Assembly (NCBI GenBank): GCA_001599915.1
Contig: BCIG01000017.1
Span: 496,001-560,000, forward strand
Direction of reading: 5' to 3'
From: Symbiotaphrina buchneri
Taxonomy: Eukaryota > Ascomycota > Symbiotaphrinales > Symbiotaphrinaceae
DNA length: 64,000 bases
In this document: positions 1,764 through 17,496 of the stretch, piece after piece
Position numbering within the stretch: the stretch's first letter is position 1
Layout: every line of letters begins with the position of its first letter
Made by a program: the position numbers and the translations under genes
Notes under the pieces: generated by a model
Databases searched by the model: none
Told to the model about the DNA's origin: nothing
The model's input: only the letters and a program-made list of their open reading frames with translations

Positions 1764-4416
1764 CTACATTCCATCCAGCACCTTCTCCATCTCCGTCAAA
1801 TCAAAGACCTCTTTGCAGGTGCCTACCTCGCAGATCTGCACTCGCTCTTTATTCGGATCCATAGCCGCCAGCAGGGGATTCCGGCTGCGTATCCACTCCG
1901 ACTGCATATTGCCTCCCACCCTCGACACAGTCGTGTTGGTATATAATCTCTTCCTCAGACTCCTCAACGCCGCCTCAACCTCCTCGTCACTGCCCGTCAC
2001 GACGATGCCGCGTACGCCCAGACACTGCGCGACCACTGCGCTCAGCATGCTGGTGAAGAGGAAGGGATGCTGCAGGATCTCGGCGCCGAAGGCTTCGCAT
2101 GTTTTCTTGGCCAGGCTGGCGTACTCCTCGTCTTCGAGGATGGAGCCTAGCCGGTACAGGTTGTTGGCGCTGACGCCGTTCGTGGAAGGTTCCGCGTTGT
2201 CCATGCCGTCCTTTAGACGTAGGATCAGATCTGTCTGGCTTTCTTCTGTTGAGAAGAATCCGTAACCTTTAGGATCCCAAAATCGGGAGATCTGCGCTTC
2301 TGGATGCTGGTCAGCTCGGGAAGAAAGTAAAACCGGAATCAAGGACGCTTACTCTGTAACCGATCCGCCAGCTCAAGGTATCTCTCGTTGAATGTTGCTT
2401 CGTACAGGTCGATCAAGCCGGATATGAGGAAAGCGTAGTCATCTGCAAAGCCCGGAGCGTCTCCTCTTCCCTCCCGGTACACTCTCCACAGCTTCGACTC
2501 TGCCTCATCCCACAGCTCCTTATATATGAATTCAACCGCTTTCTCCGCCGACTCTCGATATATCTTCGACTTCTCGGCATCAACCTCCGCGAGCATGGCG
2601 CTGGTCCTGGCCAATGCTCCTATAGCAAGACCGTTCCAGCCTACCACGATCTTGTCATCTAGTGCTGGCCGTGGCCGTTCTTTCTCACGATGTGCCCTCA
2701 ACTTTGCTCTGCCTTCCCGTAAGATCTTCACGACTTCCTCCTCCGCCAATCCAAACTCCTTGGCGAGCTGTGGAGGCGTCGTTACGACGCATAGAACGTT
2801 TTGATTCACCAACTCATCATGAGCGTCGTGCTCAGGACTGACATTGCCATGCGCCTTCACATTCCAGAACCTAGCACAGATATCTGCATCCCTCTCACCC
2901 AGTATCGAAGTGAATTCCCTGCGTGTCCAGACATAAAATGCACCTTCACGCTTTTCGGTATCGGTAGGTCGGTAGAGCGAATCAGCATCTTCGGCGGAAT
3001 AGAAGCCCCCATCAGGTGCCGCGATGGGCGTTGTCGTAAGATAGGTCGCCACATCGTACACAGCACCTAGCATTTCTGGGTCTTTGGAAACAAGGAAAGC
3101 ATCGAGGTACACATGCAGCAACTGTGCATTATCGTAAAGCCTGTACATCACTGTTAACCCTGATCTGACGGTTCTTGTTCCTTTGCTGTACCTACATCTT
3201 TTCGAAATGCGGTAAGCTCCAGTCCTTTGTCACGGAATACCTTGCGAATCCATTGCCTATATGATCATGTATGCCCCCCCTTGTCATGTGTCTCAGAGTG
3301 TTTATAGCCATGGCCTTTGCATGCTCGCACTCCTCGTCCCCTATGACGTCTTTGACAGCGGAGGGGAATTGTCCAAGCCTTAAAAGAAATGCCAGATTGA
3401 CCGGTGTGGGGAACTTCGGTGCTTTTGAGAAACCTCCATGGACTTTGTCGTACTTCGATGTGAAATGTCCATAGGCCTCTTCTAATAAGTCCAACTCTAG
3501 CCCATCCACATCTTCATCCTCGTTTGATCTCGTCTGGGCACCTTCGGCTGCAAATTCTTTTAGTTGCTGAGTGATCAGCTTTGCGCTGCTCAGACATCTC
3601 TCCTGCTGAGTCTCCCACACATCCCGCAGCTTCTCCAAGATCTCGCGGAAACCCACCTGTCCGCCCATTGCTGTCGCTGAATTCGGTCCAGGCCAATATG
3701 TACCCCCAAATACTGGCTCGAGGTCAGGAGTAAGGAACACGTTCAACGGCCAGCCGCCTGAGCCCGTCGTTGCTTGCACATAGTTCATGTAGATACGGTC
3801 GATATCCGGTCTCTCTTCACGATCAATTTTGATCGGGATGAAAGACTTGTTTAGAATATCCGCTATTTCCTGCGACTCGAAAGATTCCCGCTCCATAACG
3901 TGGCACCCTAATATGTGTTAGTCCTCGAGTTTGCCTCGTGCGCATTTCGAGCCCTTACAATGACAAGCAGCATATCCTATACTGACGAACAGCAACTTGT
4001 TCTGCTTCTTGGCCAGATCAAGCGCCTCCTTGTCCCACATCTTCCATGCGACGGGGTTATTCATATGACCCCTGACCTAGAATCATCACTTCATCAGCTA
4101 TCATTCATGTGCAATCTGGCAGGCATCGTACGTAAGGGCTTCTGCTCTGATGCAACCTATTGACCATCTTTGCCCCTCCAGGCGCATTCGAAGATTGACC
4201 ATCGCCGTCCGTATTTCTGCCGGCTCCCGGTATAGCCTGTGCGTTGGATGCCATCATTCTTGTCTGCACTTTGTGCCCTCCCACCCAGTTCCTCTGCGGT
4301 TCCTTCTTGCCAATAAATCTGGGTGCTTGGATGACTCGATCTGAGGCTGATAATACTCTACTGATAGCGAAATGACGTCGTGGGGCGAGTTTCGCGCAGC
4401 GGTTGATATGCCGCAT
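1764..4416 (-). CDS. SPATA20/YyaL-like thioredoxin-domain protein
   Basis: Five exons on the minus strand: 4132-4416, 3959-4076, 3196-3907, 2353-3140 and 1764-2299, giving 812 residues. The N-terminal DUF255 thioredoxin-like domain is plain: LHQSRSPYVRGHMNNPVAW, then SIGYAACHWCHVMERESF with the CxxC motif and a split TGG codon across intron 2, then REERPDIDRIYMNYVQ. The C-terminal half resembles the six-hairpin glycosidase-like part of the family (FEKMLYDNAQLLHVYLDAF, ALDDKIVVGWNGLAI). The family includes bacterial YyaL and human SPATA20; the biochemical role is not well known, with redox or thiol chemistry usually proposed. The first 40 residues are rich in Arg, Ser and Ala and nearly free of acidic residues, which suggests a mitochondrial presequence. 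Divergent from the CENP-W gene. Confidence 0.92.
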
Positions 4417-5171
4417 GCACTGCAGTAACCTGAGTATAGCGGTGATAGATTCGAATAATACGCAACCGTAGATTCTTGTATAGAATCGAAGAGAATATCA
4501 GTTACGGAAGATATGTGGATGCTGCGAGTCTCTCTGCGACATACGCAGAGGGCGCTTTGGGTCTGAGCCTAGAGCAGCCGGAACCAACCTTCTTTCGGAG
4601 ATCGCTACGTTGAAATGACGGATTGAGAGGACGCTTAGTGGGGCCTCGGGCATTTGCGCGCCCACGAGATTAACGTGAGGGTATGGAGGTACGAGTTCGA
4701 AATGAGCTATATGGAATTATTATCGGCGTTCCTTGAGCTCGTTTCTAGCACGACTGATTCAAACAGTGCTTGATACAGAACTGGGAGGGGCATAAGATGC
4801 TAAGTGAAACATTTGTATGAGCGAAGCTTCCGTCTTGCAGCCAATACGGAAGCAGATGCATTACCGATATGCCTTGAGCCTGTTTGCAATGTAGGAGCTT
4901 AAAACTGAGAACTGTATCCTCTTCCGCCTCACCAAGGCACCAATATTCTGCTCCGCTTTGAATATTGCGTAATATCATAAAATATTGATCTAGGAGTTTT
5001 CTGTGGTTGGATGCGGGCCGTCAACGTCCGCGTACGGTACAGGGTCCCTTACACTTTTAGCGGTCCGGGGAAGCAGCTCGGCTTCGGTTTACCGAGTCGC
5101 GTCCGAGCCAAAACAAACGCCTCCAGAAGGTGATTGCCGTCTTTTCTACACTTCAGCAGCTTGTCCTTGCA
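4417..5171. promoter_or_regulatory. Divergent intergenic promoter region
   Basis: It separates two genes transcribed away from each other (the SPATA20-like gene and CENP-W), so both promoters must lie here. I see no obvious TATA box, repeat or further gene. Short open frames on both strands show no domain. Confidence 0.5.
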
Positions 5172-5621
5172 ATGGCAGTCTCAACCAAGCTCTATCCTCG
5201 TTCCACCATAAAACGCACGTTGAAAGCACACTCAAAACTCAACGTCAGCAAAAATGTGGATATCCTGGTCAGTACTCCCGGTTCTTACCATGTCACATGC
5301 TCTTGTTCCTCCCACAACGTCAGCTAACTCATTGCTCTCCCCAGGTCTTCCTAGACTACACTCTTTTTCTCAGAGAGTTCGTCCCACCCCTACTTTCTAT
5401 CGAAATCTCGTGACGGGATAGATAATCTTCACATCAACAAAGCATGGGCTGACGGGTTGAGACAGGCTGCTGCGGGAGGCATCCATACATGGGAAACAAA
5501 ACGGCGAGAAGGTGCTGAGCGCCAAGAGTGTGCGAAAAGCCACAGAAGTGCGTTGGACCAGCGTTCTGACTGCAGAAGAGCTGACGAAGGACAGGACACA
5601 TTGAGGAAATTCAAGGGTTAG
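5172..5621 (+). CDS. Inner kinetochore histone-fold protein CENP-W
   Basis: A 78-residue protein from four small exons: 5172-5267, 5345-5376, 5466-5547 and 5595-5621. The start ATG has G at -3 and +4. The spliced product carries YPRSTIKRTLKAHSKLNVSK, then VDILVFLDYTLFLRELLREA, then KSVRKATEDTLRKFKG and stop. This is the histone-fold pattern of fungal CENP-W, which pairs with CENP-T (yeast Cnn1-Wip1) at the centromere within the CCAN complex; similarity is from memory of the family, not a search. Intron 2 uses the uncommon donor GTTCGT and intron 3 is 47 nt, yet every join restores the conserved helix register. Unspliced reading frames here end after 50-60 residues, so the gene is easily missed. 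The length equals that expected for this very short family. Confidence 0.85.
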
Positions 5622-6288
5622 GAGGTGGTGATACGAGGCGTTTCCGGATGGGAGTGTGTGCTTTCATTGCCTTTCATCTGGTATTCATAAAGGACGGACC
5701 TGAGGTGTTGGACTTTGATGACTTTGCAGTGCAGCATTACGAAGTAGATACCCGGTTTGACATAACAAGGCTCTGACGCAATTGTTGTTTTATCGCTTGC
5801 TCTGCTGCTCTACCTATTGCTCTGCTACGTGCTGGAATCCGCACCGGTCTTCTCCCACAGTTCAGACGAATTGTCCGTAATTTTGAGCCATTGACGAGAG
5901 ACAACGACTGGCAAAGCCATCTGATGAATGACATGAATCTGTAGATGTTAAAAGTCGACCTGGAATAGGGCAGCCACAATCGTAGCTGTGTCAATTTCTT
6001 TGAGAGACGGGTGCGTGTTCGACCAGTAGCTAAAGCTTGGACGGCTCAGGGACCCGACGAGCCTCGCCAACCACCAACCTAAAGTGACACTTTCCAGACC
6101 AAACCAAATCTACAACTTCCCAGATCCAACTCTGCACATCACAGCAACACTTACATCTAATTGTCTCCGTCCCACACCTATTACCGTCTCTCAATCTCTT
6201 GAGCGTCTCTGGATATTCATCTACCTAATCTATTAGCTTTAAGTTACGTCTACTTTACAGCCTCATTGCACGCAACTGCACGATCAAC
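5622..6288. promoter_or_regulatory. Intergenic, promoter side of the YAG7-like gene
   Basis: Tandem gap between CENP-W and the YAG7-like gene. The last 200 bases before 6289 are rich in C and T with few G residues, typical of fungal core promoters and 5' leaders. No further gene is seen. Confidence 0.5.
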
Positions 6289-7909
6289 ATGTCCGCCGCT
6301 CCAGTCACCAACCCCACCGTTCCAACAGAATCGAAGAGCGCAAAGAAGAAGAAAGCGAAAGCTGAAGCGGCTCCATCAACCAATGGAGACACTCCTGCGA
6401 GCCCATCCGTCAAGGAAGGCACAACAAATGGCACCGACGCTACGTTCGAGAGTCCCTACATGAAGGAGCTTTACAAGTGAGTCAAGGCCCTCTCTTAACT
6501 CACGCCCTTTGATCCAGGACTCCATTTGCTGACAATGGATACATTAGATCTATTCGGAATGTCAACAAGAAGATTGTAAGCTTTTCCGCCTGCCCTTACA
6601 TGAGTCATATCCATGTCGTGCAGTTGCTGATATACCTGTAGAACGCCAGTCAGAAGGTTGACGCCATCGTTGCCGAAAATCCTGGGAAAACTCTCGACGA
6701 GCTGGTAGCGGCCCGTAAGATCAATAATGACCAAAAAGCCCAGGTCCTCAAGAAACCGGCACTTCTGGCACAGCTCTCCTCTCTGGAAGAGCAAGTCAGC
6801 CAGTACAAGAAGTTTGACCAAGAGTATCAGAATCGGTTGAACGCCGAGAAGGAGGTACTGCAATCACAGCATAAGGAAGAGCTGGAGAAGCTCAGAGAGA
6901 CCGTGAAAGCCGAGGCCAAAGCGGAAGCTCTGAAGCAGTCCAAGGAACGACTGCTGCTCTTCTCAAAGTTCTTGAGAGCCGCCGCAGCCAACAGAGAGAA
7001 CAGCGAACAGGGCTCGGATGAGAGCAAAGCCTTCGAAGGTGCTCTTCTACAAGTCTACGGTGGTGATGCAACTGCTGTAGCTGCGGCCGAAAAGTTGATT
7101 GACGGTGTGGAGGAGGGAGTCATTGCTATTGAAGGCACAGTTCTCGAATACACCTGTAAGCACCTATTCGGGCTCATCCTTGAGCGTTCCATCACAGGTG
7201 TCAATATAGTTTACTAATTGCTGCAGATGCTCAACTCAAGGAGGCTTCTCTCCGCTACGCTCCATCCGCTCCAGAAGACGCCTGGGTAGAGGAACCACCA
7301 GCTGAACCGGTCAAGGAAGCCACCACCCACCCTGTAGTCACCGACCCAACAGAAGCCAATGCCGGTCTTACAGAGATTGACAACCCTGTTGAACCTACCA
7401 ATGGCGTCCCGGACGCAGACAGCAGTCCAATTGCTCCAGAGCAGACAAGCATTGATGCCGGTGCCGGTAACGCGGCAGCTGAGAGCCAGTGGGACACTAA
7501 GATGTCTGCATCGGTCGATTCTGGTGCAGAAGGATGGATCGAGGTCCCTCGCGATCCTGCCGAGACCGAGACCGGTACCGCTGGCGTACCTGCTGCCCAG
7601 AACAGCATTGAGAGCTGGGCGGATGATCATCCGACGGATCCTCCTGTGGAGGCCGCTGTTACCCCCGTAACCAATGGCAATGACGGCTTTCATGAGGTCC
7701 ATCACGGACGTGGCGGCAGAGGACGTGGTCACTTCCAAGGCGAGCGTCGCGGTAGTCAACGTGGTCGAGGTGGATTCCGTGGTGGTGGCGAGGGAGGCTA
7801 CAGGGGAGGTCGTGGTGGCTTCCGTGGGGACAAAGGCGGCGAAGGTGGGCATCGCGGTCGTGGGCGCGGTGGATATCGTGGATCCCGTGGCCGTGACACA
7901 GCACAGTAG
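6289..7909 (+). CDS. Yag7-like RGG-repeat protein
   Basis: Four exons, 6289-6476, 6548-6575 (28 nt), 6642-7155 and 7227-7909, giving 470 residues. An N-terminal Lys/Ala-rich tail leads into the conserved block SPYMKELYKSIRNVNKKINA, matching the N-terminal region of yeast Yag7, followed by a long charged coiled coil (about residues 75-180; EEQVSQYKKFDQEYQNRLNA). The middle is acidic, Pro/Thr-rich and probably disordered. The last 60 residues are a dense RGG/GRG domain (RGGFRGG, GYRGGRGGFRGD) of the type that binds RNA and is arginine-methylated. The layout of coiled coil plus RGG tail resembles metazoan caprin, so a role in mRNP or translation control is plausible but inferred. ATG context AACATGT. 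Confidence 0.85.
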
Positions 7910-9248: not shown

Positions 9249-13335
<4,087 letters not shown>

Positions 13336-14777: not shown

Positions 14778-17496
14778 ATGTCGCCCGCCACGGTAGCCCC
14801 GCGGCACTTCACCATGCCCAGATCGATGAACGAGTCGCTCAACTCGAGCGAGTCGCCAGCCGAAGAAGGAGCCCGCTCCACATCCGCAGCGACCAATTCC
14901 ACCCAGTCGTTCCCGGAGAGATCCAAGGATCCGCTGGGCACGCAGAAGGGGTCACATGAGGCGGGCATCACCTTCGCTGCGCAGGATAAGCTGCCAAAGC
15001 TGCCCATACCGGACCTGGAATCGACATGCAAGAAATATGTGGATTCCCTCAGACCGCTGCAGTCTCCCAGAGAACAGCAGGAAACCGAAGCCGCCGTGCA
15101 TGAGTTTTTGAAGCATGAAGGTCCGGTCCTGCAGGAACGGCTGAAGAGATATGCTACAGGGAAGACCAGTTATATAGAGCAATTCTGTGAGTCCTGGCTG
15201 GACGGCACTTAGCTCGTCTCTAGCTCCACGTGCATCCATACTGATATATTGCAGGGTACGACTCGTACCTCAACTATGACAACCGTACGTAATCTTCGTG
15301 CTCCGGATTTGCATTGGCTAACATAATAACAGCCGTTGTGCTCAACCTCAATCCATTGTAAGCTCGGCGCATCGGAGCCTAATTATCTAGTACTGATTGG
15401 AATATAGCTTCCTGCTGGAAGATGATCCCACACCCGCCAGAACAGATCAGGTCACACGTGCAGCTTCGATAGCGATATCAGCGTTATGCTTCGTACGAGC
15501 TGTCCGGAAGGAGGAGCTGCCACTAGATACTTTACGAGGCCAACCACTTTGCATGTTTCAGTACGCCAGGCTATTTGGGACGGCAAGAGTGCCCACCGAG
15601 AACGGCTGCATCATTGGTCAGGACCCGGTCGCCAAACATATTGTGGTGATGTGTCGGGGCCAATTCTACTGGTTCGACGTGCTGGATGACAATTCGGATC
15701 TTATTATGACGGAAAAGGATGTGGCTTTGAACCTTCAAGCGATCATTGACGACGCCCAGGGTATCCCAATCCAGGAAGCCGCAAAACACGCGATGGGTGT
15801 ATTGACGACGGAGAACAGGAAAGTTTGGGCTGGGTTGAGGGATATTTTGACCAGAGATGACAAGTCGAACAATGCGGACTGTTTAAGTATTGTCGATTCT
15901 GCATTATTCATACTGTGTCTTGACTACACAGAGCCACCAACACCTTCTGACTTAGCCAAGAATATGCTCTGTGGCACGAGCTTGGTGGAGCATGGTGTTC
16001 AGATCGGCACATGTACCAATCGTTGGTACGACAAGCTTCAGATTATTGTCTGCAAGAACGGCAGTGCTGGGATCAACTTCGAACATACAGGCGTCGACGG
16101 CCATACCGTCCTGCGTATGGTCAGCGACGTCTACACCGATACCATTCTCCGCTTCGCAAAGACCATCAATGGCAAAGCCCCGACCATGTGGGCCACCACA
16201 AGCCCAGACCCGTCCAAGCGGGATCCCGACAGCTTTGGGGACGTCAGTCCTACGCCTCACAAGTTGGAATGGGATATGAGCCCTGAACTAGGCACAGCGG
16301 TGCGGTTTGCAGAAGCGCGGCTATCTGACCTTATCCAGCAAAATGAATTCCGAACCGTCGACTTCAACGGCTATGGAAAGAACTTCATAACCTCGATGGG
16401 CTTCTCGCCCGACGCGTACGTGCAGATGGCGTTCCAGGCAGCGTACTACGGCTTGTACGGCAAGGTGGAATGCGTATACGAACCGGCAATGACCAAGTTC
16501 TTCCTGCACGGCCGTACAGAAGCCATTCGGGCCGTGACGCCCGAATCGGTTGAGTTTGTGAAGACCTTCTGGGCTGACAATCCTCCTGCTCAGAAAATCG
16601 ACGCCTTGAAGAAGGCTTGCCAGAAGCACACGGCTATCACCAAGGAATGCGCGAAAGCGCTAGGTCACGATCGTCATCTTTATGCACTCTTTTGCGTCTG
16701 GCAGCGTGCCCTTGACGAAGAAGGCGCAGAAGCAGCAAGCAGCACGGACGGCTACTCTAGCCCAGTCGAGGACAACTCTGAGAAAGACGCTTCCTCGCAG
16801 GTCGCCTCACCGAGTCGCAGCTCCGTCAACGGCTCCACCGAAGGCTCGACTTCGCGGGACCGCAAGAGCGCGCAGACCGCCATGCCGGCCATCTTCGCAG
16901 ACTCCGGCTGGGACAAGATCAATAACACGATCCTGTCCACGTCCAACTGCGGAAACCCAGCACTGAGACAGTTCGGCTTCGGGCCTACATCCCCCGAGGG
17001 CTTCGGCATAGGCTACATCATCAAGGACGACTCCATCTCCATCTGCGCGGCCAGCAGACACCGGCAGACGAGGCGCTTCGTGGACACTATTGAGAGCTAT
17101 CTCCTGGAGATGAGGAAGCTACTGCGCGCTACCAAGCGCAGCGGCAGCTCTCCTAAGACAAGTCGGGCGCGCGAGGCGGAAGAGAGACCGAGGCTGAATG
17201 GGCGCATGAAGAGCCGTGGGAGGCTGGTGCGAACGCCCAAGGGGAATCAGACCCCTGTGACGGACGAGGATGCTAAGTTTGAGAGTGATGATGAGGGTCT
17301 GGGAGGATGTAAGTGATCGTCGACGATTTTCATATCAGGAGGCATGAGCTAATATTTGTCAGATGGCTTCTTCGATGCTGGCATGCTACTGCAAGCTCTC
17401 AGGGGGACCAAGGAGGCCCAAGACAAGCCCGGTGAAAAGGCAATCGAGAATGTGCGGAGGAATATAGGGAAGAAGCTGCGATTGAGCGAGTATTAA
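14778..17496 (+). CDS. Carnitine O-acetyltransferase
   Basis: Five exons: 14778-15186, 15255-15284, 15333-15357, 15408-17308 and 17363-17496, 832 residues. It transfers acetyl groups between CoA and carnitine. Family marks in order: LPKLPIPDLESTCKKYVDSL at the N-terminus of the fold, then W-Y-D-S-Y-L-N-Y in exon 2; RGQPLCMFQYARLFGTARVP; the catalytic His in GINFEHTGVDGHTVLRMVSD; and the CoA-side signature KFFLHGRTEAIRAVTPES. The C-terminal SSPVED-to-RSAQ stretch is an inserted low-complexity loop. There is no evident mitochondrial presequence and no peroxisomal SKL, so it fits the cytosolic type (yeast Yat2, Aspergillus FacC) better than Cat2, but I am less sure of the subtype. Exons 2 and 3 are only 30 and 25 nt. 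Confidence 0.92.

Follow-up and report, generated by a model that had tools for sequence, protein, structure and literature searches.

A four-exon gene of Symbiotaphrina buchneri that very probably encodes the kinetochore protein CENP-W

In this study, we analysed a window of 64,000 nucleotides, G000:C17:496001-560000, the whole stretch of DNA to which all positions below refer unless stated otherwise. The locus at 5172 to 5621 is very probably a CENP-W gene in which three short introns separate four exons. The product has 78 residues (MAVSTKLYPRSTIKRTLKAHSKLNVSKNVDILVFLDYTLFLRELLREASIHGKQNGEKVLSAKSVRKATEDTLRKFKG) and, judged from the sequence, is predicted to be little more than one histone fold. 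The parts of the gene model were as follows.

5172 to 5267, plus strand: exon 1, 32 codons, starting with the ATG at 5172; aligns with the start of known CENP-W
5268 to 5344, plus strand: intron 1, 77 nt, GTCAGT..CCCCAG, with a branch-like CTAAC
5345 to 5376, plus strand: exon 2, 32 nt, based on the joined frame and the alignment to solved CENP-W
5377 to 5465, plus strand: intron 2, 89 nt, with a weak donor (GTTCGT) and a branch-like CTGAC; an in-frame alternative donor lies at 5410
5466 to 5547, plus strand: exon 3, 82 nt, based on the joined frame, the CENP-W alignment and a self-match in the genome
5548 to 5594, plus strand: intron 3, 47 nt, GTGCGT..GGACAG, with a branch-like CTGAC
5595 to 5621, plus strand: exon 4, 8 codons and TAG; less certain than exons 1 to 3

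The original prediction joined the exons at 5267/5345, 5376/5466 and 5547/5595. These joins gave 237 bases that read open for 78 codons up to a TAG at 5619-5621, and the frame continuity claimed across the four exons was borne out by the joined sequence. Both of the CENP-W histone-fold motifs that had been quoted were present in the spliced product, and the start context described as strong was seen around the ATG at 5172 (G at -3 and G at +4). The point that the protein cannot be read from any one frame was correct and, if anything, understated: the unspliced frame from this ATG has 32 residues and then enters intron 1. All three introns had GT..AG ends, and the exon lengths placed them in phases 0, 2 and 0. 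A branch-like A was found 17 nt (CTAAC), 13 nt (CTGAC) and 10 nt (CTGAC) from the 3' ends of introns 1, 2 and 3, respectively, and intron 3 carried a second CTRAC-type motif 25 nt before its 3' end. Of the 17,583 spans in the window that begin with GT, end with AG and measure 40-120 nt, 853 (4.9%) had CTRAC near the 3' end, a rough yardstick in which the spans overlap and non-introns are included. Exon 4 ended at the same residue as the matched solved CENP-W chains. We infer that the gene is transcribed and spliced in this way. The first two exons and the beginning of the third are firmly placed, with junctions predicted from the sequence; the last exon and the second donor are the least certain parts of the predicted model. 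A stop-free frame of 139 codons (4994-5413, plus strand) overlaps exon 1 out of frame and includes exon 2 in its own frame. This is probably a chance occurrence, and the part of it that was tested (5003-5410) had no Pfam match. RNA folding of the locus gave no signal (z = 1.0).

The identity of the product was examined by profile and structure searches. The profile search that had been proposed as a check was positive for CENP-W in both Pfam and PDB. The Pfam family CENP-W (PF15510) was matched with 26.6 bits and an E value of 7.4e-6, which passes the curated cut-off of 25 by a margin of 1.6 bits, and residues 8-78 were aligned with positions 17-88 of the 88 in the profile. Taken on their own, exon 1, 27 residues from exon 3 and each of two unspliced frames of the locus gave no CENP-W match in Pfam; exons 2 and 4 were too short for a separate Pfam test. 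In the PDB search, nine distinct sequences matched the 78-residue product at an E value of at most 1. The best were three CENP-W sequences (4.6e-7 to 1.6e-6), and a fourth CENP-W followed at 0.01, ranking below HmvA (0.0055). The remaining matches were HapE (0.34 and 0.48), TAFII28 (0.53) and one Walker-type ATPase (0.67). Of the histone-fold families matched, CENP-W was the closest to the product (4.6e-7 against 0.0055 for HmvA and 0.34 for HapE). By sequence, the product was a small protein of 78 residues in which the CENP-W alignment spans residues 7-78. A Pfam match to LonB_AAA-LID (E 0.00068, below the cut-off) was rejected, as it covered only residues 41-71.

We also investigated other joints of the gene model. 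Gene models were scored with a profile built solely from two vertebrate CENP-W sequences. The set starting at the same ATG comprised 6,099 models that code for at least 30 residues and contain no more than three introns, each with a branch motif and a length of 40-130 nt. The model of the original prediction was second of these 6,099 with 28.5 bits, and the top model, which differs in the last exon only, reached 29.1 bits. The best 12 of the 6,099 had the first two exons and the acceptor at 5466 in common. It is unlikely that the locus is a CENP-W gene whose exon structure is partly wrong, with either another last exon, such as 5625-5690, or the donor at 5410, which gives a form of 89 residues. 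The last exon was not settled by score, as the 5625-5690 form was equal or slightly higher in three tests: 29.1 against 28.5 bits on the two-sequence profile, 26.9 against 26.6 bits in Pfam, and an equal 4.7e-7 against 4.6e-7 with solved CENP-W. Because the two last exons score alike in the search against solved structures, we raised our estimate for a wrong joint slightly. However, only with exon 4 at 5595-5621 does the alignment extend as far as the final residue of the CENP-W chains (LRKFKG against LKKSRG), whereas the Pfam match of the 5625-5690 form ends at profile position 84 (against 88 of 88) and is followed by 17 unmatched residues. Models that keep intron 3 or have another third junction had 24.1 and 24.8 bits in Pfam, just below the cut-off.

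The donor of intron 2 was examined as well. A donor GTAAGT, GTAAGC or GTATGT was on offer at 9 of the 15 acceptors in the window that are supported by open reading frames, a rough list that excludes the model's own acceptors and includes one rival acceptor at the locus. The weak GTTCGT departs from these donors, and the donor at 5410 (GTGACG) keeps the frame. However, this donor adds 11 residues, FVPPLLSIEIS with two prolines, at a place where the CENP-W alignment has no gap, and the Pfam score of the resulting form falls to 15.8 bits. These results indicate that homology favours the donor at 5377 despite its weakness. It is conceivable, and in our view highly improbable, that some transcripts are spliced from the donor at 5410, in which case the 89-residue form would have an interrupted histone fold and would not pair with CENP-T. 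If true, this alternative splicing would act as a switch on kinetochore assembly.

The histone fold is common to several families. The product could in principle belong to another of them, being NF-Y-like or an archaeal-type histone, or the locus could be the relic of a CENP-W pseudogene; we regard either as very unlikely. The generic histone-fold profile CBFD_NFYB_HMF (PF00808) gave a weak match of 17.2 bits and an E value of 0.0065, which does not reach its cut-off of 21.4, and HmvA (0.0055) was a similarly weak match in PDB. CENP-W was ahead of the former by about 900-fold in Pfam and of the latter by about four orders of magnitude in PDB, which argues for CENP-W. A relic is opposed by the frame, which is open over four exons, by the finding of no other copy in the genome and by the CENP-T candidate that the genome has kept.

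We also compared the score of the CENP-W model with chance controls. The off-locus set was sampled at 666 other ATGs, on either strand, and contained 3,396 models with lengths of 60-110 residues; at most 60 models were built and 8 kept per ATG. A score was received by 2,649 of them, with a maximum of 5.8 bits, and 5,000 shuffles of the protein gave a maximum of 15.5 bits. The probability that unrelated short frames have been joined by chance, with no gene at the locus, is practically negligible: short exons and the 6,099 models of at least 30 residues possible from one ATG speak for it, but 28.5 bits stands against these two maxima, and the branch motif is present in all three introns against the rough background of 4.9%.

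The gene had been described as hidden in an apparent gap. This was plausible, as the nearest likely coding regions, judged from open reading frames, start at about 4,064-4,416 on the minus strand and at 6,289 on the plus strand. The adjoining gene on the minus strand (1764-4064) has a Thioredox_DsbH (DUF255) domain, with an E value of 1.8e-40 for 3195-3896; it resembles the SPATA20/YyaL kind. In its next frame (2342-3151), all Pfam matches were below the cut-off. The adjoining gene on the plus strand begins at about 6289, and one of its later frames is RGG-rich. Further on, a plus-strand JmjC-domain gene (9749-13335) has PHD-type zinc fingers and DUF7072, as tested over 10770-11831 only, and is presumably KDM4-like. 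A carnitine acyltransferase gene (E 1.9e-156) lies at 15397-17316, on the plus strand.

CENP-W pairs with CENP-T. We examined the genome, which has 23.4 Mb in 82 contigs, for partners. The CENP-T_C profile matched at G000:C11:382538-382900 (L001, L011) with 145 bits and an E value of 1.4e-41, and this CENP-T candidate is present in the same genome as the CENP-W gene. In an overlapping frame of 342 residues, 81 residues matched solved CENP-T (2.9e-10 and 1.1e-9); histone H4 (0.0005) came after two further CENP-T entries in PDB. Candidates were also found for CENP-S (3.6e-24, C2), CENP-X (6.9e-24, C1) and CENP-I (1.0e-9, C18). Seven matches came from the CENP-T search and six from the CENP-S search, of which four and two, respectively, exceeded the cut-off. 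Several places in the genome were common to both searches, and the CENP-T and CENP-S profiles also matched three and two archaeal controls, respectively. The control matches indicate that histone-fold matches cross families; together with the shared places, they suggest that the weaker CENP-T and CENP-S matches are probably other histone folds.

We next examined the copy number of CENP-W. A six-frame search of the genome with the 78-residue protein found its own exons 1 and 3 only and no second CENP-W, although such a search could miss another copy that is equally fragmented and diverged. The gene is probably the only CENP-W of the genome. A six-frame search of the genome with PF15510 gave no match at an E value of 0.001; this is expected, as the gene is so split, and with matches in 0 of 14 control genomes the search is uninformative on absence.

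CENP-W has been described, in excerpts of two reports, as a three-helix histone-fold protein and partner of CENP-T; together the two proteins bind DNA as well as the CENP-HIK head, largely via CENP-T, and in vertebrates they join CENP-S-X (PMC7641736, PMC9252888). According to part of another report, CENP-T and CENP-W are usually retained or lost jointly (PMC12678787), and the CENP-T candidate found here fits this pattern. If it behaves like the CENP-W of vertebrates and budding yeast, the product would adopt the histone fold and pair with that of its own CENP-T. The two proteins, joined by CENP-S and CENP-X where these are used, may bind centromeric DNA and could help to hold the inner kinetochore together. 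As to the remark that CENP-W is often missed in fungal annotation, an excerpt of a further report goes only as far as stating that the copy numbers given for the kinetochore may be inaccurate owing to unpredicted genes (PMC5579357). Small kinetochore genes split by introns can seem lost when they are merely unannotated, and the six-frame family search that misses CENP-W here is a concrete case of how such a false absence arises. With this probable CENP-W added to the CENP-T, CENP-S, CENP-X and CENP-I candidates of the genome, the result is useful for annotation and alters no knowledge of kinetochores.

Finally, we compared the product with known CENP-W proteins. The three best CENP-W sequences in PDB (3b0c, 3vh5 and 3b0d) we take to be from chicken, and the fourth (28op, 7qoo and others) is presumably human. 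The alignment to these chains had a single gap of one residue and ended at the last residue of each chain. Chicken CENP-W is of similar size, was aligned over residues 7-78 to the C-terminal end with 23 of 72 residues identical; the product is one residue shorter in the first half. Human CENP-W was the weaker match (E 0.01), aligned over residues 8-78 with 21 of 71 residues identical. Searches for relatives in prokaryote genome contigs and in viral contigs gave 106 and 27 stretches, respectively; those from prokaryotes fitted a pattern, and none in either set was a relative. Among titles and the openings of abstracts, no literature on CENP-W gene structure in filamentous fungi was found, and Wip1 was not named among the nine PDB sequence matches. 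Wip1, the CENP-W of budding yeast, is described in part of one report as a three-helix histone-fold partner of Cnn1/CENP-T with a disordered loop of 20 residues between helices 1 and 2 (PMC7641736). In contrast, the product has no insert of the Wip1 type relative to the other CENP-Ws. The original prediction was right in substance, and the protein is an ordinary new member of a known family.
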